In this document: positions 791 to 36,443 of the stretch, in pieces | How the letters are laid out: every line of letters begins with the position of its first letter | How positions within the stretch are numbered: position 1 is the stretch's first letter | From: Saprospira grandis DSM 2844 | GTDB lineage: Bacteria; Bacteroidota; Bacteroidia; Chitinophagales; Saprospiraceae | Length of the DNA stretch: 37,023 nucleotides | Direction of reading: 5' to 3' | Assembly (NCBI RefSeq): GCF_000275825.1 | Contig: NZ_JH719942.1 | Span: 2,524,343 to 2,561,365 of the forward strand | The notes under the pieces: generated by a model | What the model was told of the DNA's origin: nothing | Databases searched by the model: none | Seen by the model: the letters and a program-made list of their open reading frames with translations, nothing else | Program-made: the position numbers and the translations under genes

Positions 791-958
791 TTTTTTGGGG
801 CTTCCCCTCCCTGCGGTCGGGTCGGGCTGTGTCGCAGCTCGCTGTTCGCTCGGCCCTGCAGTTTTTTTCGCTTCGCTTCAAAAAACTTGGGTCTGGCCCT
901 GCGGGCCACTGCTTTCCATCCCTAAGCCAAGGCGCTTCGCGCCTTTCTGGACCAATTA
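791..958 (+). repeat. GC-rich intergenic element, copy A
   Basis: It opens with a T-run and GGGGCTTCCCC, then carries the core words TCGGGCTGTGTCGCAGCTCGC, CTCGGCCCTGC and GGTCTGGCC, and ends near ATCCCTAAGCC and a GGCGCTTCGCGCC hairpin. A variable hairpin (TTTTTTCGCTTCGCTTCAAAAAA) sits between the core words. It lies downstream of the IS5 transposase gene and faces copy B. Confidence 0.8.
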
Positions 959-959
959 G

Positions 960-1119
960 CGGCCAAAGCCGCCCCGCCCCGAGCTCCCCAAAAAGATGAG
1001 CGGCCTACTGATGCGTAGGGGTGGCCGAAGGCCAGACCCAGGCGGCAAAGCCGCCGCAGGGCCGAGCAGACCTGCGAGCCCCGAAGCGTAAGGGCGGGCC
1101 AAAGGCCCGCAGGCCCCAA
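960..1119 (-). repeat. GC-rich intergenic element, copy B
   Basis: Same family as copy A in opposite orientation: read on the minus strand it opens GGGGCCTGCGGGCC, then CTTCGGGGCTCGCAGG, TCTGCTCGGCCCTGC, a GGCGGC...GCCGCC hairpin and GGTCTGGCC, and ends with CCCCTACGCATC. Together A and B fill the gap 710-1156, in which I see no gene. Confidence 0.8.
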
Positions 1120-1156
1120 ATCAAAAATACATTAGTCTACTTTAAAATTATAGAAA

Positions 1157-2272
1157 ATGCGGTATTATCTAGCTTTACTATGGTGTTGCGCTAGTTTTTG
1201 GCAGCTTTCGGCCCAGGCAGACAGCAGTGCGGCCCGCACAGCCGAGGAAGGCGCCCTCAAGTTGGGCCTCAAAAACTTTGATGATGGCCCCCGACAAGGG
1301 CGGGCCGTTCGCCTTACCTTTTATAATGTCGAAAATCTTTTTGATACAGAAAATGACCCCAAAAAACGAGATGATGAGTTTACGCCAAGGGGCCTGAAGG
1401 GCTGGAGTTATTTCCGTTATAAACAGAAATTGAGCAATATTTATAAGGTCTTGACGGCCCTGGGGGGCTGGGGTGGCCCGCCCGAAATGGTGGGCTTTTG
1501 CGAGCTAGAAAACCGAAAAGTACTGGAAGATCTGCTTCGTTTGACCCCTTTGCAGAAATTCCGTTATAAAATTGTGCATGAAGAATCGCCTGATCGGAGG
1601 GGAATTGATGTGGGTTTTATTTATCGCTCCGACAAATTTGAGGTTTTGCATCATGAGCCTATTCGGGTGGTTTTTCCCTTTGATACGGCGGTCAAAACTC
1701 GGGATGTCCTTTATGTTTGCGGCAAAGTATTGGGGAGCAAAGACAGTCTGCACATTTTTGTCAATCATTGGCCTTCTCGAAGAGGGGGGCAGGCGGCCAG
1801 CGAGCCCAAGCGGGTTTTTGTGGCGGGCTTGGTTCGGGCCAAAATTGACTCTATTTACAAGGCGAGCCCGGCGGCCAAGATAGCCGTTATGGGAGATTTT
1901 AACGATGAGGCCGAAAATATTTCATTGACCGAAGTCTTGCGTGCTGTGCCCGAAAAAGAAGAATTGGGGCCGGGCGATATGTATAATTATATGCATGCAC
2001 TTTCTAAGAATTGGCAATTGGGCTCGCATAAATTTAGGGGGCATTGGGGCACCTTAGACCATATGGTCCTGTCTACGCCTTTGGTTCAGGAAAGCCGAAA
2101 AGGGCGTTTGCGGGCTAGCCCTTTGGGGGCACAAATTTTTTCTGCTCGTTTTTTACTAGAAGAAGATCGGGCGTATATGGGCTTGCAGCCTTTTCGGACC
2201 TATGGCGGGCCCAAGTTTTTGGGTGGATTTAGCGATCATTTGCCTATTTATGTGGACCTAATCTATGAGTAG
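1157..2272 (+). CDS. Secreted endonuclease/exonuclease/phosphatase-family protein
   Basis: 371 residues. Residues 1-20 form a signal peptide ending in LSAQ, so the protein is exported. The rest carries the metal-dependent EEP (DNase I-like) fold signature: Asn57 in FYNVENLFD, Glu116 in CELENR, His204 in FVNHWPSRRGG, Asp247 and Asn249 in MGDFND, and the closing Asp-His pair in SDHLP (about 360). All expected catalytic positions are present, so it is probably an active phosphodiesterase or nuclease. The GG after the HWPSR motif and the secretion signal match the Bacteroidota branch annotated as endonuclease/exonuclease/phosphatase family; the substrate (extracellular DNA, sphingolipid or inositol phosphate) cannot be read from sequence. 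A small exported protein follows 38 bp later and may be cotranscribed. ATG at 1157 directly precedes the signal peptide. Confidence 0.88.
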   Translation: MRYYLALLWCCASFWQLSAQADSSAARTAEEGALKLGLKNFDDGPRQGRAVRLTFYNVENLFDTENDPKKRDDEFTPRGLKGWSYFRYKQKLSNIYKVLTALGGWGGPPEMVGFCELENRKVLEDLLRLTPLQKFRYKIVHEESPDRRGIDVGFIYRSDKFEVLHHEPIRVVFPFDTAVKTRDVLYVCGKVLGSKDSLHIFVNHWPSRRGGQAASEPKRVFVAGLVRAKIDSIYKASPAAKIAVMGDFNDEAENISLTEVLRAVPEKEELGPGDMYNYMHALSKNWQLGSHKFRGHWGTLDHMVLSTPLVQESRKGRLRASPLGAQIFSARFLLEEDRAYMGLQPFRTYGGPKFLGGFSDHLPIYVDLIYE

Positions 2273-2310
2273 GCCTTTTTTTTGTAGGGAACGTATAAAA
2301 AAACGAAAAG

Positions 2311-2832
2311 ATGAAAAACTTCTTATTATTTTCTTTGAGCATGTTGTTGAGTCTAGGGCTTTCTGCACAAATTGATGAGGCTTTATTGGGTCATTTTAAA
2401 GATTTGTCGGGCAGTTTAGAGGCCGAGCAACTAGAAAAAATCTGTAGCCAATCGGCGCAGGCCTTGCCTGCTTCAGAGGTGGCCAAATTGGGTTTGGGTT
2501 ATATTCCTGCGGGGACCAATTATTTTCCTTTGGGTAAAATTGCCTTAAAAAAGGGTTGGGTATTGCTTTATGCCAGTAAAAAAGAGGCTGGAAAAATGAT
2601 TACCGTAGATGCAGTTTCCTTTAAGAAAAAGGGCGCTAAAGTAGAGAGCTTGAGTTATCTTTTGCAAGTAGGCGAAGACTTTGGCCAAAACTTAGGGGGG
2701 CGTTTATCCTATAAAAACGAGCTTTTGCACTTCGAGCAAGAGTCGGTAGACAGCAAAACGGGCAAGCGTAGCGTTAAGACGAGCATCTACCAAAAAGACA
2801 AAAACCGTTTGGACTTTAAGGAGCGTTTTTAG
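2311..2832 (+). CDS. Small exported protein of unknown function
   Basis: 173 residues with a clear signal peptide (MKNFLLFSLSMLLSLGLSAQ). I recognise no family. The mature part alternates short hydrophobic stretches with Lys-rich polar segments (KKGWVLLYASKKEAGKM, DAVSFKKKGAKVESLSYLLQVG), as in a small beta-rich periplasmic or surface protein. No cysteine remains beyond one in the helical first third (EKICSQ), so there is no disulfide signature. It follows the EEP-family gene by 38 bp on the same strand and is closed by a strong hairpin 22 bp after its stop, so the two probably form one transcription unit. Confidence 0.75.
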   Translation: MKNFLLFSLSMLLSLGLSAQIDEALLGHFKDLSGSLEAEQLEKICSQSAQALPASEVAKLGLGYIPAGTNYFPLGKIALKKGWVLLYASKKEAGKMITVDAVSFKKKGAKVESLSYLLQVGEDFGQNLGGRLSYKNELLHFEQESVDSKTGKRSVKTSIYQKDKNRLDFKERF

Positions 2833-2854
2833 CGAAGGCTTCATTTTGGGCCAG

Positions 2855-2889
2855 AAAAAGCTCCTGCGAGATTCTCGCAGGAGCTTTTT
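2855..2889 (+). terminator. Intrinsic terminator after the small exported protein
   Basis: A 16-bp perfect stem (AAAAAGCTCCTGCGAG / CTCGCAGGAGCTTTTT) with a 3-nt ATT loop. A-run and T-run on either side make it usable on both strands. The IS3 element has inserted 12 bp beyond it. Confidence 0.88.
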
Positions 2890-2900
2890 GTTTTGCGGGG

Positions 2901-2926
2901 CTGTCTTGTCCTGATATACTGATACA
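2901..2926 (+). repeat. Left inverted repeat of the IS3 element
   Basis: Pairs with 4356-4381; the four mismatches are at the 6th, 7th, 15th and 17th bases. A possible transposase promoter would lie just inside it. Confidence 0.85.
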
Positions 2927-2943
2927 ACAAAATCAGAAGATAG

Positions 2944-3366
2944 ATGGAAAATAAAGAAGGTCAGTATGTTAAGCGGACACAAAAAGATTATACCTTAGCT
3001 TTTAAGCTCCAAGTTGTGTCGGAAGTAGAAAATGGAGAGATTGGCTTAAAGGCCGCTCAACGCAAGTATGGGATACAAGGAGACAGAACAATTCGGACAT
3101 GGATCGAGAAACATGGCCAATATGATAAAAGCTATAAATTAAGAAGTATGAAGAAGAGTCCAGAACAAGAATTGATGGCGTTGCGTCAGCAATTGAAGCT
3201 TTTAGAGAAGAAAAATCGTCGCTTGGAAAAGGAGCTAAATCAGGCAGATAAGAAGGCCTTGTTTTTTGATATGATGATAGATATAGCGGAAGAAGAATTT
3301 GAAATTCCAATCAGAAAAAAGTCTTTACCCGAACAGTTGATAAATTCCAAAAAGAAGAAAAAATAA
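2944..3366 (+). CDS. IS3-family transposase OrfA (DNA-binding subunit)
   Basis: 140 residues. Residues about 10-60 form the helix-turn-helix of IS3 OrfA proteins (YTLAFKLQVVSEVENGEIGLKAAQRKYGI..IRTWIEKHG), and residues about 75-105 form a leucine-zipper-like coiled coil (LMALRQQLKLLEKKNRRLEKEL), used for multimerisation. It ends in a Lys run encoded by AAGAAGAAAAAATAA. The six-A run at 3358-3363 directly before the stop is a natural slippage site: a -1 shift there leads straight into the OrfB frame. Alone, OrfA usually acts as a regulator of transposition. Confidence 0.92.
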   Translation: MENKEGQYVKRTQKDYTLAFKLQVVSEVENGEIGLKAAQRKYGIQGDRTIRTWIEKHGQYDKSYKLRSMKKSPEQELMALRQQLKLLEKKNRRLEKELNQADKKALFFDMMIDIAEEEFEIPIRKKSLPEQLINSKKKKK

Positions 3367-4250
3367 GCTTAAGTAGCTTATGTCGATTGGTCGGGATAAA
3401 TCGTCAAAAGTATTATAGATCGAAGGCAAAAGTTAGATCTAATCAGGGTTTGGCAGAAAAAGTAGTTGCCTTAGTTCAAGAAGTACGGAACAAAATGCCT
3501 CGCTTAGGCGGCCGCAAATTGTATCATTTACTTCAAGCTGAGTTGAAGGCTCTAGGAGTAGGCCGAGATAAATTTTTTACTATTTTGCGGGCCAATAATC
3601 TGCTGGTTCGACCTCGAAAGAACTATCATACAACGACAAATTCCTTCCACCACTACAGAAAACATAAGAACAAAATAGCTGATTTGAAAATTTATCGACC
3701 AGAGCAAGTCTGGGTTTCAGATATTACTTACATTGGAACGAGAGAAAATCCGATGTATTTAGCCTTGGTCACAGACGCTTATTCTAAGCAAATAATGGGT
3801 TATGATGTCTCTAACAGCTTAAGCAGCATTGGCTCTATTCGAGCCTTGAAACAGGCTGCAAAGCGTCGTCAATATCCTAATGAAGAGCTGATTCATCATT
3901 CTGACCGGGGCATTCAATACTGCTCAAATGATTATCAGCAACTGCTCAAAAAACTAGGCATAAGTTGTTCTATGACAGAGTCTTACGATCCTTATGCAAA
4001 TGCCGTAGCAGAGCGAATAAATGGAATATTAAAGCAAGAGTTTATTGCAGATTTTTTCCATTTAGGGCTAGATGCGATGAAGAAAATAGTGGCTCAAAGT
4101 ATTGATATTTACAACCAAGCGCGACCACATTGGTCTTGTCAATTTATGCCGCCTGCTGAAATGCACCAACAACAAGAGCTCGAATATAAGAGCTATAAAA
4201 AGAAAACAACTCTAGCCCAAGATCATCTTAAGCCAGAGTTGTTAAATTGA
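3360..4250 (+). CDS. IS3-family transposase OrfB (DDE integrase core), made as OrfAB by -1 frameshift
   Basis: The frame is open from the slippage site and gives KISLSSLCRLVGINRQKYYR, the normal beginning of IS3 OrfB, so the protein is probably made as an OrfAB fusion. The first possible independent start is TTG at 3387 (287 residues). The catalytic triad, numbered from that TTG, is Asp112 (WVSDITY), Asp173 (HHSDRGIQY) and Glu209 (NAVAERINGILK), with 35 residues between the second Asp and Glu, exactly the D,D(35)E spacing. An HTH_21-like segment (NKMPRLGGRKLYHLL) precedes the core. No stop or frameshift breaks it. Confidence 0.92.
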   Translation, partial: KISLSSLCRLVGINRQKYYRSKAKVRSNQGLAEKVVALVQEVRNKMPRLGGRKLYHLLQAELKALGVGRDKFFTILRANNLLVRPRKNYHTTTNSFHHYRKHKNKIADLKIYRPEQVWVSDITYIGTRENPMYLALVTDAYSKQIMGYDVSNSLSSIGSIRALKQAAKRRQYPNEELIHHSDRGIQYCSNDYQQLLKKLGISCSMTESYDPYANAVAERINGILKQEFIADFFHLGLDAMKKIVAQSIDIYNQARPHWSCQFMPPAEMHQQQELEYKSYKKKTTLAQDHLKPELLN

Positions 4251-4266
4251 CAACAAGTTATTTCCG

Positions 4267-4305
4267 TAAGATTTTTTGACCTTTTTGAAGGAGGTCAAAA
4301 TCTTC
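4267..4305. terminator. Hairpin downstream of OrfB
   Basis: AAGATTTTTTGACC pairs imperfectly with GGTCAAAATCTT around a short loop. It lies inside the IS, between the OrfB stop and the right inverted repeat, and probably ends the transposase transcript. Confidence 0.5.
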
Positions 4306-4355
4306 CAGAATAACTTTTTACCCGTATTTAATCAGAATTTTATTGCTTTAAATTC

Positions 4356-4381
4356 TGTATCAGTTTTTCAGGACGGGACAG
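4356..4381 (-). repeat. Right inverted repeat of the IS3 element
   Basis: Reverse complement of 2901-2926 with four mismatches; followed by the GGC target duplicate. Confidence 0.85.
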
Positions 4382-4398
4382 GCCCTAAGAAAAGGGCA

Positions 4399-4719
4399 TT
4401 ATTTTAAAAATTCTTGGATGGCAGACTGTAACGAATGCAGTTTGGGGTAGTTAAGACTATAGAGAATCTGTTTTCCTTCTCGGACATAACTGACTAGCTC
4501 TGCTTGGCGGAGAATGCGCAAATGCTGAGAGGTAATTGATTGCTCGAGTTCTAAAGCATTGTAAATACTATTCACATTAGTGCCCGGATGTTGGTCAATA
4601 TAAGAGAGAATATCTAGACGAAGGGCATGGGCCAAGGCCCGAATAGTTTGGTTTGCTTTTGCTAAACTGTCTAAGTTGAAGGGGTTCATATTTTCATTGA
4701 GAAAGGTAGATGCGGCCAT
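4399..4719 (-). CDS. ArsR-type winged-helix regulator (second of tandem pair)
   Basis: Winged helix-turn-helix of the ArsR/SmtB type: ALAHALRLDILSYIDQHPGTNVNSIYNALELEQSITSQHLRILRQAELVSYVREGKQILYSLN. The recognition helix is SITSQHLRILRQAELV and the wing is VREGKQILYSL. The metal-sensing motif of ArsR proteins (ELCVCD) is absent, so the signal is not the classic one. I chose ATG 4719 over the TTG at 4767, because the latter lies inside the upstream gene; ATG at 4689 (MNPFNLDSL) is also possible. It follows its paralogue by 34 bp in the same direction. The IS3 element ends 18 bp after its stop codon. Confidence 0.85.
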   Translation of the reverse strand: MAASTFLNENMNPFNLDSLAKANQTIRALAHALRLDILSYIDQHPGTNVNSIYNALELEQSITSQHLRILRQAELVSYVREGKQILYSLNYPKLHSLQSAIQEFLK

Positions 4720-4753
4720 AGTGATGGTGGTTTTTTGAAGAGTGGACAAACAT

Positions 4754-5089: not shown

Positions 5090-5164
5090 AGCAGTTTGTT
5101 TTGTGAGGGGGGGAATGGTCGTGGAGTTCTGCTGCTGAAAATGCAACAGCATTTTCTATATGTA

Positions 5165-7157: not shown

Positions 7158-7446
7158 TTTTTTTTGGGGCCCGCGGCCAGCTTTGCTGGCCGCCGCTATG
7201 CTGCGGGGCTCACTGTTCGTTCGGCCCTTCGCTTTTTCGCTTTGCTCAAAAGCTCGGTCTGGCCTTCGGCCACCCCTCCGCAGCGCTGGGCCGCTCCACT
7301 TTTTTTGTTGCTTCAAATCTTTAGGCTTCGGCCTTTTGGCCCTCCCTTTTAAGCGGTATTCGTCGCTGCGCTCCTCATTCGCCAATATGTCCCCGCCCAC
7401 CCACCCCTCTGCGGGATTCCCTAAGGAATCCCTCGGGGAGGCGGGC
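7158..7446 (+). repeat. Long GC-rich intergenic element, copy C (inverted copy of F)
   Basis: Opens with T-run, GGGGCCCGCGGCCAGC and its hairpin partner, then the family core words (GGGGCTCACTGTTCGTTCGGCCC, GGTCTGGCC..GGCCACCCC) and an extension of about 180 bp ending with CCCTCGGGGAGGCGGGC at 7446. The whole block is repeated in inverted orientation at 13661-13943 with near identity, except for the hairpin between the core words, which is CGCTTTTTCGCTTTGCTCAAAAGC here and GCAGCCGCCTTTGGCGGC there. Confidence 0.85.
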
Positions 7447-7520
7447 AATAAGCTAGCTGCAAATTTGGCCCAAGTTCAACGCCTAAGGGTTAAACATACA
7501 GCTAAAAAGGGCCGAAGGCC

Positions 7521-7694
7521 CGCAGGCTATAGCCAGATTTAAACACACTCACTTTTACAGTTTGCAGCAATTTCCCGCTAGTCGGCTCTATTTTTCTCGG
7601 CCATAGCGAAGGCTATGCCCTTAAAAAATAGCTGGCCTAGCCAAAAATTCATAGCAAAGATGGCCAAAGCAGCGCGATTAAATCTGGCTGAGGG
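7521..7694 (-). repeat. Intergenic module of about 170 bp (inverted copy of 28804-28978)
   Basis: Runs from GCAGGCTATAGCCAGATTTAA to TTAAATCTGGCTGAGG and matches the reverse complement of 28804-28978 with only scattered mismatches by eye. It includes internal hairpins such as GGCCATAGCGAAGGCTATGCCC. It is attached to copy D here and copy K there, so it travels with the core element. Confidence 0.8.
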
Positions 7695-7818
7695 GCTGTA
7701 GCAGGGCCGCCAAAGGCGGCAGACCGAGGCGCTTTGCGCCGAAGGGCCGAGCAGACCTGCGAGCTGCGCAATGGCCCGACCCGAAGGCCCAAAGGGCCGT
7801 AGGGGCAGCCCCAAATCC
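7695..7818 (-). repeat. GC-rich intergenic element, copy D
   Basis: Minus-strand reading: GGGGCTGCCCC, hairpin around CCTTTGGGCCTTCGGG, CAGCTCGCAGGTCTGC, CTCGGCCCTTCGGCGC, then GGTCTGCCGCC. It starts 5 bp after the stop codon of the bestrophin-like gene. With C and the module at 7521 it fills 7012-7823; no gene is visible there. Confidence 0.8.
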
Positions 7819-12142: not shown

Positions 12143-13412
12143 AGTTGTGATTACGGGTTTGGGGGTAGTGGCTCCCAATGCCTTGGGAAGGGCCAATTTT
12201 TTGGCCGCTTTGCAGTCGGGAAAATCGGGAATTAGCTATCGCTCAGATTTGGAGGAGCTGCAGTTTGCTTGTCGAGTCGCAGGCTGCCCTCCATTGACCG
12301 AAGAGTACATTAATAGCTTTTTGACGCCCTTGCAAAGGCGATATATTCAGGGCTCTGGCCTTTTGTATGGTTGTTTGGCGGGCCTAGAGGCTTGGCAGGA
12401 TGCCGCCTTGCCAATTTCCGAAAAGAAAGAGGAGCCCGATTGGGAGTCGGGCTGCATTTTTGGCGGCGGGCAGTCTAGTATTGAGGTGGTTCGAGAGGGA
12501 ATTTATAAGGTGGATGCGGGCAAGGTCCGCCGCATTGGCTCTTCTTTGATTCAACAGACGATGGAGAGCAGCATCAGCGCTTATTTGGGTGGCTTTTTGG
12601 GCCTTGGCAATCAGTTGAGTTCTAATTCGGCGGCTTGCAGCACGGGCAGCGAGGCCATATTAATGGGCTATGATCGCATTCGGTTGGGACGAGCGGAGCG
12701 GATGCTGGTCGGCAGCTGCAACAGTTCTGGTCCATATATTTGGGCGGGTTTTGACTCTATGCGGGTGCTTTGCCGCAAGTTTAATGACCGCCCGGAGCAG
12801 GCTTCTCGCCCAATGAGCGAGCGGGCGGCAGGTTTTGTGCCCGGCAGTGGCGCTGGCGCATTGGTTTTAGAGAGTTTGGCCTCGGCTCAAGCCCGTGGCG
12901 CGCGCATTTATGCCGAGCTAAAAGGGGGACATTTAAATGCGGGCGGTCAGCGTCAGGGGGGCAGCATGACGGCTCCCAATATCAAGGCGATTGAGCGCTG
13001 TATTCGCTTGGCTTTGGCCGATGCGGGCATTTCTGCGCAGGAGCTAGACGCTATTTCGGGCCATCTGACGGCCACTATGGGCGATCCTGCCGAAATTGGG
13101 GCTTGGCTGCGGGCTTTGGGCCGTTCTGCCGATGATTTTCCTAAGATTAATAGCCTGAAATCCTTGATTGGTCATTGTTTATCGGCGGCGGGAGCCATTG
13201 AGTCGGTGGCGGTGGTTTTGCAATTGGTCCATGGCTTTTTGCACCCCAGCAAAAATGCCGAAGATCTTCATCCCGAAATTGCGGCCCAGATTTCTGCCGC
13301 CTGTATTCCCCTACAAACAGAGGCCGCCAATTTGCGCTATATGGCCAAGGCGAGTTTTGGCTTTGGGGATGTGAATAGTTGTTTGCTTTTTGCCCGTTGG
13401 GAGGGGGAGTAG
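12126..13412 (+). CDS. Beta-ketoacyl synthase (KAS I/II type)
   Basis: 428 residues. Thiolase-fold condensing enzyme with the complete Cys-His-His triad: Cys171 in SAACSTGSEA, His313 in SGHLTATMGDPAE and His350 in KSLIGHCLSAAGAIE. The first His is followed by Leu instead of the usual Gly (HGT). The N-terminus RVVITGLGVVAPNALG is standard. It should elongate an ACP-bound chain with malonyl-ACP. Either ATG 12126 or 12129 can start it. It is the last gene of the operon; repeat element E follows within 10 bp of its stop. There is no acyl carrier protein, ketoreductase or phosphopantetheinyl transferase gene next to it, so those functions must be supplied elsewhere. Confidence 0.9.
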   Translation: MMQENRVVITGLGVVAPNALGRANFLAALQSGKSGISYRSDLEELQFACRVAGCPPLTEEYINSFLTPLQRRYIQGSGLLYGCLAGLEAWQDAALPISEKKEEPDWESGCIFGGGQSSIEVVREGIYKVDAGKVRRIGSSLIQQTMESSISAYLGGFLGLGNQLSSNSAACSTGSEAILMGYDRIRLGRAERMLVGSCNSSGPYIWAGFDSMRVLCRKFNDRPEQASRPMSERAAGFVPGSGAGALVLESLASAQARGARIYAELKGGHLNAGGQRQGGSMTAPNIKAIERCIRLALADAGISAQELDAISGHLTATMGDPAEIGAWLRALGRSADDFPKINSLKSLIGHCLSAAGAIESVAVVLQLVHGFLHPSKNAEDLHPEIAAQISAACIPLQTEAANLRYMAKASFGFGDVNSCLLFARWEGE

Positions 13413-13420
13413 TTTCTTTT

Positions 13421-13571
13421 TTTGGGGCTGCCCCTTCGGCCCTTTGGGCCTTCGGGTCGGGCTGTGTCGCAGCTCGCAGGTCTGCTCGGCCCTGCGCCGC
13501 CAAAGGCGGCTGGGTCTGGCCCTTTGGGCCCCTGCTATCCATCCCTCAGCCGCGGGCCTTCGGCCCTTTTT
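13421..13571 (+). repeat. GC-rich intergenic element, copy E
   Basis: Starts just after the ketosynthase stop: T-run, GGGGCTGCCCC, hairpin CCCTTCGGCCCTTTGGGCC, TCGGGCTGTGTCGCAGCTCG, AGGTCTGCTCGGCCCTGC, CGCCGCCAAAGGCGGC hairpin, GGGTCTGGCCC, and ATCCCTCAGCC at the far end. Confidence 0.82.
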
Positions 13572-13660
13572 AGCTGTAGGTGAAAACCTATAGCAAGAGC
13601 GGTATTGCTTCGCAATGATTGATGGATGAGGGCTTGGGCAAAGTCTGCAGTTAGTTTGTC

Positions 13661-13943
13661 GCCCGCCTCCCCGAGGGATTCCTTAGGGAATCCCGCAGAG
13701 GGGTGGGTGGGCGGGGACATATTGGCGAATGAGGAGCGCAGCGACGAATACCGCTTAAAAGGGAGGACCAAAAGGCCGAAGCCTAAAGATTTGAAGCAAC
13801 AAAAAAAGTGGAGCGGCCCAGCGCTGCGCAGGGGTGGCCGCAGGCCAGACCAAAGCCGCCAAAGGCGGCTGCAGGGCCGAACGAAGAGTGAGCCCCGCAG
13901 CATAGCGGCGGCCAGCAAAGCTGGCCGCGGGCCCCAAAAAATA
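13661..13943 (-). repeat. Long GC-rich intergenic element, copy F (inverted copy of C)
   Basis: Reverse complement of 7158-7446 with near identity over its outer GGGGCCCGCGGCC hairpin and the extension of about 180 bp, and a different hairpin (GCCGCCAAAGGCGGC) between the core words. Its GGGGC end lies next to the terminator of the carbonic anhydrase gene. E and F fill 13413-14012; the open frames that cross them look like by-products of the repeat. Confidence 0.85.
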
Positions 13944-13956
13944 ATAATAGGCCCAC

Positions 13957-13992
13957 AAAAAAACGCCAGCTTTTGTCGAGCTGGCGTTTTTT
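13957..13992 (-). terminator. Terminator of the carbonic anhydrase operon
   Basis: AAAACGCCAGCT pairs with AGCTGGCGTTTT around a 7-nt loop, with A/T runs outside. It lies 21 bp beyond the carbonic anhydrase stop and just before repeat F. Confidence 0.82.
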
Positions 13993-14012
13993 ATTCCCCT
14001 TTTCAATTTGGC

Positions 14013-23819: not shown

Positions 23820-24050
23820 ATTTTGGGGCTTCCCCTTCCGTCGGGTTAAAACCCAAGGCAAAGCGGTATCGCTTTGCGAAGCTATATAAAATGAGGGTTA
23901 AAACCCTCATGAGTTTTCGGTCGGGTCGGGCTGTGGCGCAGCTCGCAGGTCTGCTCGGCCCTGCGCTTTTTTTCGCTTTGCTCAAAAAGCTGGGTCTGGC
24001 CCTTCGGGCCACTGCTATCCATCCCTAAGCCGATTAGGGCCTTGCGGCCC
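23820..24050 (+). repeat. GC-rich intergenic element, copy I (with extra hairpins)
   Basis: Opens 4 bp after the OmpA-family stop with TTTTGGGGCTTCCCC. An insertion follows that holds hairpins CGGGTTAAAACCC, AAAGCGGTATCGCTTT and GAGGGTTAAAACCCTC. The family core then resumes: TCGGGCTGTGGCGCAGCTCG, AGGTCTGCTCGGCCCTGC, a TTTTTTCGCTTTGCTCAAAAA hairpin, GGGTCTGGCC and ATCCCTAAGCC. Confidence 0.8.
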
Positions 24051-24100: not shown

Positions 24101-24259
24101 CGGCAGACAGGCGGCGCAGCCGCCGCAAAGGAGCGTAGCGACTGGCCTAGGGGCCTGAAAGGGTGGCCGCAGGCCAGACCGAAGCCCGAAGGGCTGAAGG
24201 GCCGAGCAGACCTGCGAGCCCGGCAAGGGCCCGGCCGCCGCAGGCGGCAGGCCCCAAAA
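24101..24259 (-). repeat. GC-rich intergenic element, copy J
   Basis: Minus-strand reading: eight T, GGGGCCTGCCGCCTGCGG, GGGCTCGCAGGTCTGCTCGG, a CCCTTCAGCCCTTCGGGC hairpin, TCGGTCTGGCC, GGCCACCC. It starts directly at the terminator of the lipoprotein operon. I and J together fill 23817-24319; no gene seen. Confidence 0.8.
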
Positions 24260-28803: not shown

Positions 28804-28978
28804 CCTCAGCCAGATTTAATCGCGCTGCTTTGGCCATAGTTTGCTATGAATTTTCTGCTAGGCCAGCTATTTTTTAAGGGCATAGCCTTCGCTATGGCTG
28901 AGAAAAATAGGGCCGACTAGCGGGAAATTGCTGCAAACTATAAAAGTGAGTGCGTTTAAATCTGGCTATAGCCTGCGG
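28804..28978 (+). repeat. Intergenic module of about 170 bp (inverted copy of 7521-7694)
   Basis: Near-identical in reverse complement to 7521-7694, from CCTCAGCCAGATTTAATCGC to AAATCTGGCTATAGCCTGCG. Beyond it a GGCGGCTTCGCCGCC hairpin and a GAAGTGGTATTGCTTC hairpin complete the gene-free stretch 28629-29081. Confidence 0.8.
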
Positions 28979-29081: not shown

Positions 29082-31667
29082 TTATTTGGCAACAGGCGTT
29101 AGTTTAATTGTTTTTGTTTGGCTGGGAGGAGTTACATCTACACTTGTGGCAAAGGCAACCTCTGCCATATTAACACAATTGAAATTATCTTTTGAGGTGT
29201 TAACCTCTACTGTGATTTCCTCTTTTGTGGATTCCTTTATTTTTGCAGTTATTTCGATCTGCTGTTCTGTGTAAGCGTTAGAAACCTGCTGGCCACCTGA
29301 GGTCCCTGCAGTTATAACTGTAAAAGCACTCATAGACAGATCTTTTGTTGTTTGAAAAGAATTTTTTTCTACTCTAAGTAGAAACTTAATTTTAAGGTTT
29401 TTTTCACTCTTAGAATACTCAGCAAAAAGATCTGATGCTTTTATCGTCATGTAGTTATTTCCTCCCTTAGTAACTACAGGGTTACTATTGTTTGTAATTG
29501 CATAGGAAAAAGAACCACCTTCAGTTATTTTGCGGCTGAGACTAAATGTATACTCCATGATGTCTGACTCCTGTTCTTTGGCCGCTACGCTTTTTAAAGC
29601 CTCTATTAACTTGGCTTTTAAAAGTCGAATAACAGATTTTCTGTCAGTTGTTGTTTTTCTAGCCTTTTTCGCATCATCATCAGACCACCAGCTTGGCATA
29701 TCAGGAACAAATTGAAGGATCCAGTCTGTTATCCGCTTAACACCTTCTGCAATAATATCTGTTACATTGTCTTCAATAGTATTAAATACTTCTTCGGCTT
29801 GCTCTGCAAGTAGTACTATATCGGCTACAGCTTTTTTCCAATTAAAGATCCATTGAATTTTGAAAGAATTTTTACCTAAGTCAAAGAGCGTTTCGGCTTC
29901 TTTCTTCGGCAGAGGAATAGGCTGAAAAATAGCCTCTAGCTTAGTACTATCTGCCAAAGCATGAATACCCGCTTTTTCTAAGGCCTGAACTGCAGCTTGA
30001 TGCTGCTCTAAGTGGTTAATGCCTTTGTGTATCGCTAGTTCTAATAAGAAAGCCTGCCAACTGCTAGCAACCTCTGAATAACTTAGTTTTTCCCCTTCTA
30101 CTAAAGTCTCCTTAAAGGTTTGCTGAAAGAGCGTCTCCAATTCTGGAAAGTCCGATATCTTCAGGTTGTTTTGGGCGTTTCGCTCCAAGGTTTTTCTAGA
30201 AAAATAGCGATACTTGTATTTGGCTAACTTATTAGAAAAAAGATCTCTATACTCCTCGCTCCATGCTTGTATGATTTTTTGAAGAGGACTAGGCTTAACT
30301 GTTGCTAAAACTATAACGGAGGCAAATTTAGCATCAAAAGAAGTCCAATTTTGGATACTTCTTTTCGGAAATTCATTAGTTATTAAGCCTTCTAATGCAC
30401 TGTAATTAGTAATGGCATCGCCTAATGCAGTGTATATTTGGCTTAAGGTAACAGCCTTTAATTTAGAGATATCTAGCAGCATAATTTGTCCAATAAAGTC
30501 ATTGGGATCTGCGCTCATTCCATTTAAAAGAGACTTCAATTGTTGGGAGTCCACTTTTACATTGGGATTTTTCTCAAGATAGGCAAGTTGTGACCTCAAC
30601 TGAACTAGTCGCTCAGTTCCTACTGCGTTAAAAATTTCTCTAAGGGACTGTACTCTGTAGTTGGAGAAATCAAAGTCACAGTGAATAAATACCTTATGTT
30701 CTTCTAGGCTTCCTTCCTGCTCTAGGCGTTCCAAAGACTGAAGTAAAGAATTTTTGACGGTCGCTACTTTCACATATTTGTCTGTATAATAATCATTGGC
30801 CACTACTTGAGGAAAATAGCTGGGGGCTAAACAATCTGCAAGGTTAATGCTGTCATCCCATGTTAAATATTCCTCATCCTTCCATCTATTGATGCTATTT
30901 TTTTCCTCTTGTATTTTAAGGACTATATTCTTTTTCTCTTCCAACTCCTCCTCCGTCAAAAAGTCATCTTTGGCCAGGGCTTGGTCCAAAATGGGTTCTA
31001 GTTGGTTGGGGGAAAGGACATAAGGCGCAATGCTAGACTCAATAAAGCCAGACTTAGCTCTATACTTCTTAATCTTTTCTACCGCATCATAACGCTCAAA
31101 AATCTGGGCCAATTCTTCTAAGAATACAGTGGGGGGCTTGTTGTCCGCCTGCTCTACTAAAGCCTTAATATCTGCCGCAATCAGACGGCAAACTTTGAGC
31201 TTTTTACCTTCCTTGAATTTAATGTAAAGCTCATCAAGGTGTAAGGTTTCCCTCCATTCGTCTTTTTGGATATTGCCTTGAAGTTTTCGTGCTTTTAAAG
31301 CAACTTTTCGAGCATTTAGAGCAAACTCTAACAAAAAATCAGTTTTGGGAATATCCTCTTCCTTAAGGGCCGAAAATAGCTGCTCCAAATTGGCCTTATC
31401 CATTTTGAGCTGCGGCTTAAAGGCCTTTAGGCCCGCTTTGGTCTTGAGCAAAGCCGCCTTTAGGCTTGGGCGATCGGGATCCTCTGCAGGAAGCTCCTGA
31501 TAAAGCGCATAGAGCTCTTGATATTGGGCCAAGGTTTCTTCATAAAGGGCTGTATCTTCTTGATACTGCTGCTGCTTTGCCAAAAAAAGTTCTCGCTGCT
31601 TCATCTGTAATAGGTTTAGGTGACCAAAAAATAAACTGGATAAGAGAAAAATGGCTAATGCTTTCAT
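29082..31667 (-). CDS. Large exported protein of unknown function (861 residues)
   Basis: Signal peptide MKALAIFLLSSLFFGHLNLLQ. The next 650 or so residues are mostly charged and helical (QQYQEDTALYEETLAQYQEL..., many Lys/Glu heptad-like stretches), with short Trp-rich spots such as VPDMPSWWSDDDAKKARK near 660. The last 158 residues (from about 704) switch to beta-rich sequence (YTFSLSRKITEGGSFSYAI, QQIEITAKIKESTKEEITVEV). There is no T9SS sorting domain, lipobox or recognisable enzyme motif; I do not recognise the family. A second gene at 36517 matches its first 145 mature residues almost exactly, and the two share promoter and upstream repeat element, so this belongs to a duplicated gene family. 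Confidence 0.8.
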   Translation of the reverse strand: MKALAIFLLSSLFFGHLNLLQMKQRELFLAKQQQYQEDTALYEETLAQYQELYALYQELPAEDPDRPSLKAALLKTKAGLKAFKPQLKMDKANLEQLFSALKEEDIPKTDFLLEFALNARKVALKARKLQGNIQKDEWRETLHLDELYIKFKEGKKLKVCRLIAADIKALVEQADNKPPTVFLEELAQIFERYDAVEKIKKYRAKSGFIESSIAPYVLSPNQLEPILDQALAKDDFLTEEELEEKKNIVLKIQEEKNSINRWKDEEYLTWDDSINLADCLAPSYFPQVVANDYYTDKYVKVATVKNSLLQSLERLEQEGSLEEHKVFIHCDFDFSNYRVQSLREIFNAVGTERLVQLRSQLAYLEKNPNVKVDSQQLKSLLNGMSADPNDFIGQIMLLDISKLKAVTLSQIYTALGDAITNYSALEGLITNEFPKRSIQNWTSFDAKFASVIVLATVKPSPLQKIIQAWSEEYRDLFSNKLAKYKYRYFSRKTLERNAQNNLKISDFPELETLFQQTFKETLVEGEKLSYSEVASSWQAFLLELAIHKGINHLEQHQAAVQALEKAGIHALADSTKLEAIFQPIPLPKKEAETLFDLGKNSFKIQWIFNWKKAVADIVLLAEQAEEVFNTIEDNVTDIIAEGVKRITDWILQFVPDMPSWWSDDDAKKARKTTTDRKSVIRLLKAKLIEALKSVAAKEQESDIMEYTFSLSRKITEGGSFSYAITNNSNPVVTKGGNNYMTIKASDLFAEYSKSEKNLKIKFLLRVEKNSFQTTKDLSMSAFTVITAGTSGGQQVSNAYTEQQIEITAKIKESTKEEITVEVNTSKDNFNCVNMAEVAFATSVDVTPPSQTKTIKLTPVAK

Positions 31668-31688
31668 CGTTTTGTTTTTGTGTTTACA

Positions 31689-31720
31689 TAAAAGTAGTAA
31701 CTTTTACATATAAACGCAAA
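31689..31720 (-). promoter_or_regulatory. Probable promoter of the 861-residue protein gene
   Basis: Minus strand TTTG (31717-31720), 20 bp, TACTTTTA (31689-31696). The paralogue at the other end of the inverted duplication has TACCTTTG at the matching place, so this copy has lost the final G of the -7 box. Confidence 0.5.
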
Positions 31721-31744
31721 ACAGCTTTGAAATTTTTATCCAAA

Positions 31745-31899
31745 AATGGCCGAAGGCCATTCGGCCTAGCGATGCGGCGGGGTGGCCCGCAGGGCCAGAC
31801 CGAAGGCGAAACGAAGTGTAGCCTGAAGGGCCGAGCAGACTTGCGAGCCCCAAAGCGTAGCGCCGCAAGGCCGCAGGCCGCAGTGGAGGCCCCAAAAAA
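31745..31899 (-). repeat. GC-rich intergenic element, copy L (duplicated with its gene as copy M)
   Basis: Minus-strand reading: T-run, GGGGCCTCCACTGCGGCC, TTGCGGCGCTACGCTTTGGG, CTCGCAAGTCTGCTCGGCCC, GGTCTGGCC, CCACCCCGCCGCATCGCTAG, then a GGCCTTCGGCC hairpin. It lies between the tRNA-Asp terminator and the promoter of the 861-residue protein gene. Confidence 0.82.
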
Positions 31900-32066: not shown

Positions 32067-32093
32067 AGTGATGCCCTCTTTTTGAGTGCGACA

Positions 32094-32125: not shown

Positions 32126-32199
32126 TTTATTTTTAGAAATAGGCCGTTTTTTTCTAAAAAAGGGGAAAAACAAGCCTATAAGCCCAAAAAGGCGCCTAT

Positions 32200-32778: not shown

Positions 32779-32805
32779 TTTTGTTAAATTTGGAGTGAAA
32801 AAAAA

Positions 32806-32835
32806 AGCTGCTTCTCCCAAAAGGAGAAGGCAGCT
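32806..32835 (-). terminator. Terminator or attenuator between the peroxiredoxin and AhpD-like genes
   Basis: Minus strand AGCTGC-C-TTCTCC pairs with GGAGAAGCAGCT (one bulged base) and is followed by nine or more T. It lies 22 bp after the peroxiredoxin stop and 27 bp before the AhpD-like start. Confidence 0.82.
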
Positions 32836-32857
32836 CATCTATATATTAAACCGTCAA

Positions 32858-33409
32858 TTAGACAGTAAGGGTAGCTTCTCCTTTCTTCCAGTTACAGGGG
32901 CAAAGCTCATCGGTTTGCAAACCGTCGAGTACGCGGATGACCTCTTCTACGTTACGGCCTACATTGAGACCATTTACGCTAACAAAGCGGATCACGTTAT
33001 CAGGATCAATGATAAAAGTAGCACGGTAAGCTACGCGCTCATTGGCTTCCAAAACACCCAGCTCCTCAGCCAAAGACTTAGAGGTATCGGCGAGCATAGG
33101 AAACTGCAAGCCACGTAGGTCCTCATGGTCATGTCTCCAAGCCAAGTGAACAAACTCAGAGTCAGTAGAAGCACCAATTAGGGTAGTGTCACGATCGCGG
33201 AACTCATCAAAGGCTTTGTTGAACTCAGCAATTTCAGTAGGACAAACGAAAGTGAAATCTTTGGGCCACCAGAACATAACGGTCCAGCGGTTGTCTTCAT
33301 TTTTGAAGTCATTAACGAGCTCAGCAAACTCTTTTCCCTTTTCTAGAGAAACAACTGCTTGCTTTTTAAATTGAGGAAACTCAGAGCCGATTGAAAGTAG
33401 GCGATTCAT
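32858..33409 (-). CDS. AhpC-type peroxiredoxin
   Basis: 183 residues, cytoplasmic. Peroxidatic Cys56 in DFTFVCPTEIAEF, with the catalytic Thr and Pro (PTE) and a conserved Arg in VAYRATFIID. Two cysteines near the end, Cys170 and Cys172 in DELCPCNW, can resolve the sulfenic acid, as in the AhpC group that works with AhpD. The DELCPCNWKKGEATL tail is typical of Bacteroidota peroxiredoxins. It reduces hydrogen peroxide and alkyl peroxides. It is divergent from an OxyR gene and preceded by a candidate OxyR site, so peroxide induction is likely. Confidence 0.93.
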   Translation of the reverse strand: MNRLLSIGSEFPQFKKQAVVSLEKGKEFAELVNDFKNEDNRWTVMFWWPKDFTFVCPTEIAEFNKAFDEFRDRDTTLIGASTDSEFVHLAWRHDHEDLRGLQFPMLADTSKSLAEELGVLEANERVAYRATFIIDPDNVIRFVSVNGLNVGRNVEEVIRVLDGLQTDELCPCNWKKGEATLTV

Positions 33410-33500
33410 ACTAGTTTTATTTTAAGTTGTCAAACAAAAGTTACGAAAGCTTAATTTTACAAGAAGGCGAACCCTTGACTTTCGTCTTATCTTGCTAACA

Positions 33501-33508
33501 CAAAAGTA
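33501..33508 (-). promoter_or_regulatory. -7 box of the peroxiredoxin gene
   Basis: TACTTTTG on the minus strand fits TAnnTTTG. No good TTTG at -33 (TTCG instead), as expected of a promoter that needs an activator. Leader about 85 nt. Confidence 0.5.
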
Positions 33509-33550
33509 CGTCAGCCGTTTAAATAAATCGAATTGATTTTTTTGATAAAA

Positions 33551-33569
33551 ATATAGATAAACTCTATAT
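33551..33569. promoter_or_regulatory. Candidate OxyR binding site
   Basis: ATATAGATAAACTCTATAT is a palindrome with 6-bp arms. The inner ATAGATAAACTCTAT matches the OxyR half-site pattern ATAGnTnnnAnCTAT at all but one fixed position. It lies about 65 bp upstream of the expected peroxiredoxin transcription start and about 100 bp upstream of oxyR. Confidence 0.65.
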
Positions 33570-33668
33570 GCCTTGCTATTCAGAACAAAAGAAGCCAAAG
33601 CATTTATTTTGTAGAATTTAATTTAGTTACAAGACCCTTAATCACTCAATAATTAGTTAAACTTTTTT

Positions 33669-34595
33669 ATGCCTACACTCAGCCAACTAGAATATATTGT
33701 CGCTGTAGATTTACATCGGCATTTTGGGGCCGCGGCTCAGCACTGCTATGTAACGCAGCCTACTTTGAGTATGCAAATCAAAAAAGCAGAGGAGGAGTTG
33801 GGACTTAGCCTCTTTGACCGCAGCCGCCAACCTATTGTGCCCACCGAAATGGGCCGCTTAATTATTGAACAGGGCCGGGTTATTCTTCGAGAACGAGATC
33901 GACTGCATGAACTATTGGCCGAGTTTAAAAATGAGTTGCAGGGCCATCTTCGCCTGGGGATTATTCCTACTCTAGCCCCTTATTTGTTGCCTAAGTTTGT
34001 GGGGGATTTTGTCCGAAATTATCCCAAAATTAAGCTAGAAGTGCTGGAGCTATCTACTAAAGACTTGGCCGAAGCCCTAGAAAAAGACCAGGTTGATTTA
34101 GGGATTTTAATCACGCCTTTTCGACAGGCAAAAATCCATACCATCCCCCTTTTTTATGAGGAAATTCAACTCTATATTCATGAGCAAGACCCTCTTTTTA
34201 AAAAGCAAGTTGTTGCCGCCGAGGAGCTTAAAGGGAGAAGCCTTTGGCTGCTTAGACAAGACCACTGTTTCCGCAACCAAATGATCAACCTCTGTAAGAT
34301 TCCGCAAGAAGAACAACGGCTACCTTTTAGCTTTGACAGTGGCTCCTTAGAGGCTTTGCAGCGTTTAGTGGACCAAGAAGGGGGCTTTACGCTTTTGCCC
34401 GAATTGGCCTGCCGAGCAGAACAAGCCCCCCGCCTTCGCCCAATTTCTCCCAAACCACTGCGAGAGGTGAGCCTGGCCCATTTGCATAATTTTGCCAAAC
34501 CCCGCTGGATTAAAATTCTGAAGGAGGAAATTTTGGCGGCCCTGCCCAAACGGATGCAAGAGCTCCAAGGCGGACAATTGGTCGATTGGCAATAG
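33669..34595 (+). CDS. oxyR: OxyR, LysR-type peroxide sensor
   Basis: 308 residues. N-terminal winged helix-turn-helix (LEYIVAVDLHRHFGAAAQHCYVTQPTLSMQIKKAEEELGLSLFDR). The regulatory domain has Cys200 and Cys209 in QDHCFRNQMINLCK, equivalent in spacing and context to Cys199 and Cys208 of Escherichia coli OxyR, which form the redox-switch disulfide. It is divergent from the peroxiredoxin gene, the classic oxyR-ahpC layout, and should activate it on peroxide exposure and repress itself. Its stop is 1 bp from the stop of the convergent metalloprotease gene. Confidence 0.92.
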   Translation: MPTLSQLEYIVAVDLHRHFGAAAQHCYVTQPTLSMQIKKAEEELGLSLFDRSRQPIVPTEMGRLIIEQGRVILRERDRLHELLAEFKNELQGHLRLGIIPTLAPYLLPKFVGDFVRNYPKIKLEVLELSTKDLAEALEKDQVDLGILITPFRQAKIHTIPLFYEEIQLYIHEQDPLFKKQVVAAEELKGRSLWLLRQDHCFRNQMINLCKIPQEEQRLPFSFDSGSLEALQRLVDQEGGFTLLPELACRAEQAPRLRPISPKPLREVSLAHLHNFAKPRWIKILKEEILAALPKRMQELQGGQLVDWQ

Positions 34596-34596
34596 C

Positions 34597-36213
34597 TTAA
34601 GGATAGTATTGCCCCTGATATAATAGGGTTTTATCCGATTTGAGCTCATAGTAGAGCCGCTGCTGGGGCAGCTGTAAAAACAGGCCCTCCGAAAGTAGCT
34701 GCCATTGTAGCTCGGGGCTGTCTTTGGGCCGCTCTAAGCCCTTGGCCAAACGTCGCAACAACATAAATTCTGTTTGTCGACTTTGCTGGCCCCGCTGCTG
34801 ATGTAGACCCAATACCCAAATATTTTCTTTTCCCTTTTTCCCCATCCATAACCAAAGTTTCCAACTCCCTTTTTGGTATAGGCAAATGGGCCGCCCAAGT
34901 TGCTCGCTAAGGTTTTTTTGCTTTTTGGCCACGGCGGCTAAGGGCCATTGCTGTATCCATTGTTGGGCGGGCCATTGCTGGCTCTTAAATAAACGCCGCT
35001 GGGGCAATAGGAGCAACTCTTCCGGTAGGGCTTCTTTCTGAATTAAGGCCTGGTTGAGCTGGGCCAATTGCTGAATTTCTCTGGCCTCTGTTTTAGCCAG
35101 TTTATCGAGTTGGAGCAAGGCTTTTTCCGACTCCCCCCGGGCGTTCCAAATGATCGCCTCAGCCAACTGAATATAGGCCTTTAGGGGCTGCTTGGCCTGC
35201 CCTTTGGCTAGTTTGAGCAGCTGCTCGGCCCGCTGCAAGGGCTGGGCCTCTAGCTCAAATAGCTCGGCCTGATGAATGAGGTAAAGCGCCTGCGCATAGC
35301 CCAAATAACTCACTAAGGGCATTTTCTCTTTTTTGGCCACCTGCCTAAAATAATCTAGGGCCAAGGCCAGCCGCTGCTTGGGCGATTTCCCAAGGTAAAT
35401 GCCCGCCCCCCGCAGCCGCTCGGGCCGCTTCCAGTTGTTGTGCAATAGGTTGGGAAAAAACTGCGCTTCGGGATAAGCCTGAGCCGTAAATTGTAGCTGG
35501 ACCAAGGCCATATTATGCAAAATCTGACTATGCGCAAGCCCCATGCTATCTATCAAATAATGATAACAAGCCTCCGCCTGAAGATAGCCGCCCAAACTCG
35601 CCCATTGCTGCCCAGCCTCAAAAACCTGAATCAATTCTTCGGTCCGTTGCAAGACCCCCTCATAGGCCTTTTGTCTAAGGGGCAAGGGCAAATAGCCCTG
35701 CAAATCAGCCGCAAGCTGATAATCCGCATAGGCTTTTTCCATAAAATGAGCAATGCAGTTTTGCCCCGAAGGCGTTTGGGCCAAGAGATCAAATCCAGCC
35801 ATATAGGCCCAAAAAGCCCCCTCTTGGTCCGCCTGCGCTTCTTGCTGCTGCCAAAGCTGAAAGTTCTTGCTCTTGGCCGCAAATGCCGTTCGCCTTTTGC
35901 CATGCTCCCGCCAATGATGACTGAGCTCATGCGCCAACAAAAAAGCCATGGCATCTCGCCCATGAGGCAGCTGCTGACAAAGCTGAACCATTTTTTGATC
36001 CAAGACAATCCAATTGCTATCCGCCCGATAAAAAGCCATGCTCGCCCGCTGCCGCCAGATTTTTAAACTAGGCGGATGCGGCAAATGCAAGGAGGCCAAT
36101 AATTGCTCATAAATAGGGGCCACATACTGCTGCTCGGCACTGCTCTTGGCCAAAAACTGCTGCCCCAAAAGCGAATGACTCGCCAACAAAAAGAGAATAA
36201 GGATCCGATACAT
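34597..36213 (-). CDS. Secreted M48-like zinc metalloprotease with helical repeat region
   Basis: 538 residues. Signal peptide 1-18 (MYRILILFLLASHSLLGQ). Zinc motif His95-Glu96-x2-His99 in LLAHELSHHWREH, with the likely third ligand in the downstream EAQAD segment (Glu125, Asp129), as in M48 proteases; AxxAG-type YMAGFD follows. Residues about 200-440 are helical with TPR-like pairs (SLGGYLQAEACYHYLIDSMG, PLVSYLGYAQALYLIHQAEL). The last 90 residues form a small beta-like domain. Related secreted M48 proteins with TPRs (BepA type) act in outer-membrane protein quality control; a like role is an inference. It is convergent with oxyR with no terminator between them. Confidence 0.82.
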   Translation of the reverse strand: MYRILILFLLASHSLLGQQFLAKSSAEQQYVAPIYEQLLASLHLPHPPSLKIWRQRASMAFYRADSNWIVLDQKMVQLCQQLPHGRDAMAFLLAHELSHHWREHGKRRTAFAAKSKNFQLWQQQEAQADQEGAFWAYMAGFDLLAQTPSGQNCIAHFMEKAYADYQLAADLQGYLPLPLRQKAYEGVLQRTEELIQVFEAGQQWASLGGYLQAEACYHYLIDSMGLAHSQILHNMALVQLQFTAQAYPEAQFFPNLLHNNWKRPERLRGAGIYLGKSPKQRLALALDYFRQVAKKEKMPLVSYLGYAQALYLIHQAELFELEAQPLQRAEQLLKLAKGQAKQPLKAYIQLAEAIIWNARGESEKALLQLDKLAKTEAREIQQLAQLNQALIQKEALPEELLLLPQRRLFKSQQWPAQQWIQQWPLAAVAKKQKNLSEQLGRPICLYQKGSWKLWLWMGKKGKENIWVLGLHQQRGQQSRQTEFMLLRRLAKGLERPKDSPELQWQLLSEGLFLQLPQQRLYYELKSDKTLLYQGQYYP

Positions 36214-36296
36214 CTTTTCTACTTTATACAGTTTTAAAGAAAGAGTTAGGCCTAAAATAATTCCATTTTACGTTTGTTGCCGCTTTTTTAAAGAGG

Positions 36297-36443
36297 TTTT
36301 GGGGCCTCCGCTGCGGCCTGCGGCCTTGCGGCGCTACGTTTCGCAGCTCGCTCTTCGCTCGGCCCTGCGGCCTGACGGCCTTGGTCTGCGGCTGCGCCGC
36401 ACTGCTGCACATCGCTAGGCCAAATGGCCTTCGGCCATTTTTG
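36297..36443 (+). repeat. GC-rich intergenic element, copy M (duplicate of L)
   Basis: TTTTGGGGCCTCCGCTGCGG, GCGGCGCTACGTTTCGCAGC, TCGCTCTTCGCTCGGCCCTG, a CGGCCTGACGGCC hairpin, TTGGTCTGCGGC, then CATCGCTAGGCC and GGCCTTCGGCC. It closely matches L around the outer end and the far end; the central hairpins differ. Confidence 0.82.

Follow-up and report, generated by a model that had tools for sequence, protein, structure and literature searches.

What maintains a hairpin-rich repeat between the genes of a marine predatory bacterium at some thousand places per genome? The repeat was noticed in a stretch of 37,023 nucleotides of Saprospira grandis DSM 2844 (contig NZ_JH719942.1, positions 2,524,343 to 2,561,365), hereafter the window. 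One protein encoded in the window matched S. grandis Lewin at 96%. A preliminary description of its sequence had listed 13 intergenic copies, in which fixed words alternate with hairpins that differ completely between copies, and had suggested that selection on an RNA or DNA structure, not simple decay, lay behind this. We found that the copies have a common multi-helix fold of one strand, with strong covariation. Tentatively, we read them as formerly mobile elements that are now kept as strand-specific sites of single-strand-folding DNA, a reading to which we give somewhat less than an even chance.

A common fold of one strand

Read along the strand that folds (the sense strand), an element begins with the end helix P1, followed by P3b and P3, the P5 hairpin, AGACC, the P4 hairpin, and a GG pairing with CC. 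The second half consists of the core GGCC-GA-GC-loop-GC-GA-GCC, P3', the P2 hairpin, P1', and CC, and an A-run lies outside the element. P1 occurs as GGCCT, GGCTG, GGCTT, or GGCCC; judged by the end helix there are at least four subtypes, not two as first described. In a set of 235 copies, about 12 of them counted twice since two sampled loci (L014 and L015) lie within region A (see below), P1 paired exactly in 232 (shuffled, 88; standard deviation [SD], 7) and P3 in 199 (shuffled, 90; SD, 6.5). The core stem was GC/GC in 225 of these copies and AC/GT in 10.

Covariation was scored in two alignments. Paired cells made up 96.0% of A1, which comprises 50 elements from outside the window, versus 77.2% when shuffled, and its covariation score of 0.455 (shuffled, 0.153; SD, 0.010) was reached by none of 500 shuffles. 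Further pair types were not in excess in A1 (27 versus 27.3). A2, with 40 sequences of four other genera that were aligned to the model and thus lean towards it, scored 0.462 (shuffled, 0.167; SD, 0.010), again above all 500 shuffles. Together with the many copies and the conserved words found outside the window, this covariation supports the proposal of a selected structure over simple decay.

A covariance model built from A1 (R1) matched 13 elements in the window, with E values from 1.4e-19 to 6.5e-14, and nothing further up to an E value of 1. They are the 13 copies originally listed, in the same relative orientations. The elements are as follows, with the strand being that of the folded sense strand and the scores being those of R1.

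797..928, minus strand: element copy 1, 99.7 bits, end helix GGCTT/AAGCC
789-796, plus strand: T-run outside copy 1
1002..1117, plus strand: element copy 2, 103.2 bits
7166..7292, minus strand: element copy 3, 85.0 bits, end helix GGCCC/GGGCC
7686..7812, plus strand: element copy 4, 79.3 bits, end helix GGCTG/CAGCC
13424..13551, minus strand: element copy 5, 100.5 bits
13815..13935, plus strand: element copy 6, 78.3 bits
16923..17043, minus strand: element copy 7, 89.7 bits
19904..20027, plus strand: element copy 8, 103.6 bits
23825..24031, minus strand: element copy 9, 83.1 bits (R1 itself aligns 23900-24031)
24144..24255, plus strand: element copy 10, 83.9 bits
28693..28811, minus strand: element copy 11, 106.8 bits
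31763..31893, plus strand: element copy 12, 91.0 bits
36301..36421, minus strand: element copy 13, 87.8 bits

The 13 orientations alternate strictly, which the preliminary description had listed without remark. The conserved unit is about 112 to 132 nt; 129 called copies had a median of 122 nt and a range of 112 to 212 nt, inserts included. The repeats are thus larger than repetitive extragenic palindromic (REP) elements, as had been stated, but the size given then, 120 to 290 bp, includes inserts and flanks. In copy 9, the P2 hairpin holds an insert of another repeat module. By eye, a terminator-like hairpin with a T-run directly precedes copy 11 on the plus strand.

The folded strand is the opposite of that in which the copies had been described, and its 3' end lies in the A-run, the complement of the T-run. 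Wobbles at covarying pairs read G-U on the sense strand and would be C-A on the other, which identifies the sense strand as the one that folds; at one such pair, U-G was present in 21 of 50 A1 sequences and 24 of 40 A2 sequences. The antisense strand is A-poor (8% A) and was energetically lower in 19 of the 235 copies with DNA parameters and in 84 with RNA parameters. Among 232 parsed P5 hairpins, the loops were GAA (85), GCA (64), AAA (30), GTCA (20), GTA (7), GTTA (6), and others in smaller numbers, and 158 had the form C(GNA)G. P5 tetraloops with G...A ends were GNRA in 3 of 31 cases. GNA loops form very stable DNA minihairpins, with GAA above GTA (Yoshizawa 1997, as cited in PMC6479982), and the GNA triloops of P5 are a DNA-type motif.

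Places kept, hairpins exchanged, and traces of mobility

The family extends far beyond the window, both in the genome and among relatives. A 12-base core word occurred 493 times forward and 494 times in reverse in a 4.5-Mb Saprospira genome (G000), compared with 0 and 0 for the reversed control word. Among 60 relatives, three genomes of the same genus had 952 to 1044 copies, so that four of six Saprospira genomes have about 1000 copies each. Fifty-five of the 60 had 0 to 5 matches each, like their controls (0 to 14). Viral contigs, searched with a single exact form of this word, gave no match.

The fold recurs in other genera of the Saprospiraceae, which further supports a selected structure. 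In the family search, where up to 109 candidates per genome were scored and the counts are lower bounds, R1 matched at least 7 of 33 genomes at an E value of ≤0.01, with at least 107 matches in G018, 61 in G014, and 14 in G035. Searches of the order and the phylum were confined to at most 12 candidates per genome under stricter filters, which can miss weak or rare elements; at an E value of ≤1e-4, at least 12 of 298 order genomes and at least 2 of 296 phylum genomes matched, all of them Saprospiraceae. At this threshold the fold, in different sequence, was present in at least 12 Saprospiraceae genera including Saprospira, some of them represented by a single match.

Orthologous copies were compared over about 209 kb of synteny between region A (G000), region B (G002, about 84 to 85% identity), and region C (G005, about 92 to 94%). 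Of the 64 elements of A, 52 had a counterpart with unchanged orientation in C, 3 had one solely on the opposite strand, 3 had a remnant, 2 were absent, and 4 were not mappable; the numbers for B were 44, 5, 4, 4, and 7, respectively. Since one C element and one B element were each matched by two A elements, these counterpart counts are slightly inflated. P1 was identical in 50 of 52 A-C pairs and 40 of 44 A-B pairs. The corresponding numbers were 15 and 11 for P2, 15 and 3 for P4, and 23 and 14 for P5. From one species to the next, most copies thus stay in place with unchanged orientation, but their hairpins are exchanged for others from a common repertoire, often as whole units and each independently of the others. 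This exchange largely accounts for the hairpin differences originally described. In another genus (genome G288, L138-L157), the P2 loop was highly variable (CACT, CGAT, ATCG, CTCA, GTTA, and others) on a near-fixed stem in copies that otherwise resemble each other.

Traces of mobility were found outside Saprospira. Copies in G018 and G288 lie within inserts bounded by terminal inverted repeats of about 20 to 24 bp that are related to each other (126 plus 119 matches versus 4 plus 3 for the control in G018; 89 plus 86 versus 0 plus 0 in G288). With up to 5 mismatches allowed, the G288 inverted repeat was present at 20 of 41 5' flanks and 26 of 41 3' flanks. By eye, a target duplication of 9 nt was seen at one G018 copy and of about 8 nt at a few G288 copies. 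Of the 175 places listed for G288, the first 100 were also inspected by eye and included no transposon-sized pair of ends. For the flanks of 235 Saprospira copies, the match to these inverted repeats did not rise above the level of shuffled sequence. The traces in G018 and G288, together with the lack of a gene-orientation rule in Saprospira (below), would fit a purely selfish family of miniature inverted-repeat transposable elements (MITEs), whose fold serves its own transposition and is preserved by conversion with no gain to the host. However, the Saprospira copies have no detected ends, yet most are in place, oriented alike, and structurally intact at about 84 to 94% DNA identity, and we consider the selfish account unlikely, although a serious contender.

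The preliminary description had also pointed to REP-associated tyrosine transposases (RAYTs). Y1 transposase genes gave 12 matches across all six Saprospira genomes, two of which are element-free. At six loci examined, an element lay about 300 to 1100 nt away at three and none lay within about 1.5 kb at the other three. These genes, and the occurrence of about a thousand palindromic copies between genes, often as inverted pairs, recall REPs and bacterial interspersed mosaic elements (BIMEs) moved by a RAYT (TnpA-REP). We regard this origin as very improbable in view of the length of about 120 nt, the presence of Y1 genes in element-free genomes, and the word at the position of the REP tetranucleotide, which by eye is GTAG in one subtype and ATAG or ACAG in others. 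A reverse transcriptase partner was not supported: all six genomes of the genus, the two element-free ones included, had one or two matches. The match at G000:C2:2908174-2908800 and its relatives lie in open frames of 335 to 642 amino acids in all six.

Spacing along each strand and position relative to genes

Neighbouring elements had opposite orientations in 107 of 127 cases in region A, 116 of 135 in B, and 112 of 132 in C; since the regions are partly orthologous, these and the other spacing counts are not independent. Copies on the same strand were evenly spaced. The six strand sets had a 5% quantile of 3351 to 3618 bp, a median of 5.4 to 5.8 kb, and a coefficient of variation (CV) of 0.30 to 0.43. 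For the plus copies of A, the CV was 0.43, compared with 0.90 (SD, 0.11) for a null over eligible gaps (lowest of 2000, 0.61), and one spacing was below 2.5 kb, where 17.3 were expected and none of 2000 nulls had fewer than 6. In G288, 38 of 49 neighbours alternated, and the mean per-strand CV was 0.52 versus 0.89 under uniform placement (0 of 10000). Alternation mostly follows from this spacing: circularly shifting one strand still gave 0.784, 0.817, and 0.816 (SD, 0.03) in A, B, and C, compared with the observed 0.843, 0.859, and 0.848. Strict alternation as a separate rule was rejected, being only about 1 to 2 SD above this null, and alternation beyond spacing was not significant in G288 (p 0.11) or in two plasmids (p 0.086 and 0.082). 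With alternation this close to null levels, per-strand spacing is the primary rule. A correlation of element features between neighbours was not supported: of 12 comparisons, one, for P3 in the plus-minus pairs of A, had p=0.016, and the other 11 had a p value of 0.07 or more.

Of all the properties of the system, the spacing is the strangest. It could be a by-product of recombination between close direct repeats that deletes essential genes, so that neighbours persist only if they are inverted or, when direct, far apart. This would agree with the depletion of same-strand spacings below 2.5 kb, with an alternation that maximises the distance between direct copies, and with adjacent same-strand pairs being slightly less often of the same type than opposite-strand pairs (15 of 45 versus 104 of 256; difference not tested). 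However, same-strand spacing did not differ between pairs of the same type and of different types (115 versus 184 pairs; p=0.67), 229 of 299 same-strand pairs had no common exact word of ≥22 nt, and distances decreased slightly as common words became longer (r -0.14), opposite to what this account would predict. Similarity-driven deletion thus explains the spacing poorly and seems improbable, whereas a function exerted on each strand would explain it.

The two kinds of interval between neighbours also differ. Pooled over A, B, and C, intervals with T-runs facing inward had a median of 3490 bp and a CV of 0.35 and were never gene-free (0 of 167), while the others had a median of 1135 bp and a CV of 0.96, with 61 of 168 gene-free. 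Oriented double-stranded binding sites that form chromosome domains of about 3.5 kb, in the manner of CTCF, would give intervals of the first kind. The covariation implies that a single strand matters, and per-strand spacing by itself yields nearly as much alternation as was observed; we assign such domains only a small probability.

In Saprospira, orientation is independent of gene direction. Among 224 G000 copies with genes called on both sides by an in-house script, 63 and 65 lay in either orientation between co-directional genes, and the remaining arrangements numbered 54 and 42. The median distance from the T-run end to the facing stop was 19 to 22 nt in G000. Copies alternate in 19 of 20 neighbours on the S. 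grandis Lewin plasmid (NC_016936.1; 50,000 of 54,948 bases), even inside co-directional pur and paa runs, and in 18 of 19 on the CCB-QB6 plasmid (50,000 of 53,242 bases). The copies face a start in 14 of 19 cases in G018, 4 of 4 examined in G035, 7 of 10 in G288, and 1 of 10 in G014.

These data bear on a cis-acting RNA element in mRNAs, such as a terminator, a stabiliser in the 3' untranslated region, or a riboswitch-like leader. RNA folds of sense strands contain most of the consensus helices, with z scores down to -4.4, and a co-directional gene follows the element in the four G035 copies examined (of at least 14 matches) and the 14 of 19 in G018. However, there is no orientation preference in Saprospira, G014 has the opposite trend (a stop faces the element in 9 of 10 copies), copies alternate inside co-directional gene runs, and the window had no Rfam 15 match at the gathering score beyond two tRNAs. 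A permissive Rfam search of 13400-14000 gave 11 matches, all below the gathering score, the best of which (E 0.0013; 13953-14000) lies outside the elements. An mRNA element is, on this evidence, quite improbable.

The two plasmids (L159 and L160; 54,948 and 53,242 bp) carry gene runs for purine synthesis and phenylacetate degradation. With gene runs of this type, they resemble secondary chromosomes.

A proposed DNA-level role, known systems, and neighbouring repeats

If the elements are folded DNA sites, they would have spread as MITE-like inserts and then become fixed. Selection on the fold would maintain them, while gene conversion between copies would swap their hairpins. The sense strand would fold once single-stranded, as in a replication gap, during resection, or during DNA uptake, and a putative host factor would recognise the folded strand as a strand-specific landmark, at which it could prime, stop, or identify its own DNA. 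A broader version is more speculative, and we lean against it: a chromosome-wide system with a folded single-stranded DNA (ssDNA) site about every 5 to 6 kb per strand on chromosome and plasmid, its shape selected and its hairpin sequences freely exchanged, with a putative dedicated host factor reading the sites in replication, repair, or uptake.

Several points weigh against reading the elements as DNA sites kept for a function. The element has no known binding protein or phenotype and is not known to become single-stranded, and two genomes of the genus, G003 (63% complete) and G004 (90%), had no copies in the core-word search or in the family search with R1. Gene conversion alone could keep the copies alike, even spacing could arise by insertion and loss instead of function, and in G288 some of the P2 loops seem to be under no constraint. 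GNA loops with C-G closing were found in 77 of 187 parsed P2 hairpins (48 unparsed) and 50 of 188 parsed P4 hairpins (47 unparsed), and the 14 G...A tetraloops listed for P2 were all GCAA, a GNRA loop. Five sense strands compared with shuffles had z scores of -1.5 to -4.4 as RNA and -1.4 to -3.2 as DNA, a single copy folded both ways had the lower energy as antisense RNA, and the tandem G-A motifs fit RNA as well. G-U pairs were more frequent in predicted antisense folds (1032 of 9848 versus 314 of 9499 for sense), as the composition of that strand would give. The confinement of the GNA majority to P5 and the RNA z scores beyond those for DNA lower our confidence; on balance, folded DNA is favoured over RNA, but not decisively.

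Each known system resembles the element in part. MITEs with terminal inverted repeats include ERIC, RUP, and Correia elements. Like them, the element is short, gene-free, intergenic, and of high copy number, and it is bounded by inverted repeats in G018 and G288; unlike them, it carries a covarying multi-helix core, and in Saprospira ends were not found while core and place are kept. DNA uptake sequences (DUS), also called uptake signal sequences (USS), are short and linear, specific at the genus level, and evenly spaced on both strands in about 1000 or more copies. The element shares the genus-level distribution, the roughly 1000 copies, both strands, and even spacing, but it is about 120 nt and folded. 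In integron attC sites, one strand folds, structure rather than sequence is conserved, the length is 57 to 142 nt, and the terminal structure is variable (PMC2727003). The element too folds on one strand and keeps shape over sequence; in contrast to attC sites, its copies are dispersed over the genome with several hairpins each. REPs are 20 to 50 nt with a GTAG-like tetranucleotide (PMC8266576), and BIMEs have regular spacing and alternating orientation within them (PMC2817692). The element is likewise intergenic, of high copy number, and in inverted pairs, but it has 112 to 132 nt and several helices and alternates at the kilobase scale across genes. A clustered regularly interspaced short palindromic repeat (CRISPR) array was rejected, as its direct repeats would lie together, whereas the copies here are dispersed and mostly alternating. 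A literature search, which did not include the S. grandis Lewin genome paper, yielded no title or abstract that describes the element; the main text of the WHT genome announcement (PMC10508125) has no occurrence of "repeat", "repetitive", or "intergenic", and the REP survey RepRanger (PMC12306157) has none of "Saprospir".

Should the fold function as a DNA structure, its natural variants, which number in the thousands, could reveal the rules of a conserved ssDNA fold. If the family is selfish, it would be transposon-like and, through conservation of a fold, have persisted after the loss of its ends. Every model has to account for the per-strand spacing, a quantitative property that is testable in culturable strains. 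The wholesale exchange of hairpins offers a clean system in which to study how dispersed copies convert one another while selection acts on their structure.

Other repeats lie near the copies. Modules beside them are common to 7256-7474 and 13633-13851 (219 nt, 95%) and to 7520-7658 and 28840-28978 (139 nt, 96%), which suggests that these gaps contain further repeat families. Several elements (L014, L012, and region A) have a second module, GGTCGTCGAACTGCGG...AAAG...CTTGTTGTCG, inserted within or beside them. The stretches 31163-31808 and 36376-37023 have in common, in inverted order, an element, its flank, and the adjacent gene, with parts at 82, 86, and 93% identity, as if the element and the gene start had duplicated together. 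In a k-mer count of L001-L021 plus the window, 14-mers such as TTTCAATGCTGCTTCGCC... occurred 32 to 33 times and may belong to a CRISPR repeat array. Just before copy 1, positions 140-709 contain an open frame that, by eye, resembles the end of an insertion-sequence transposase.

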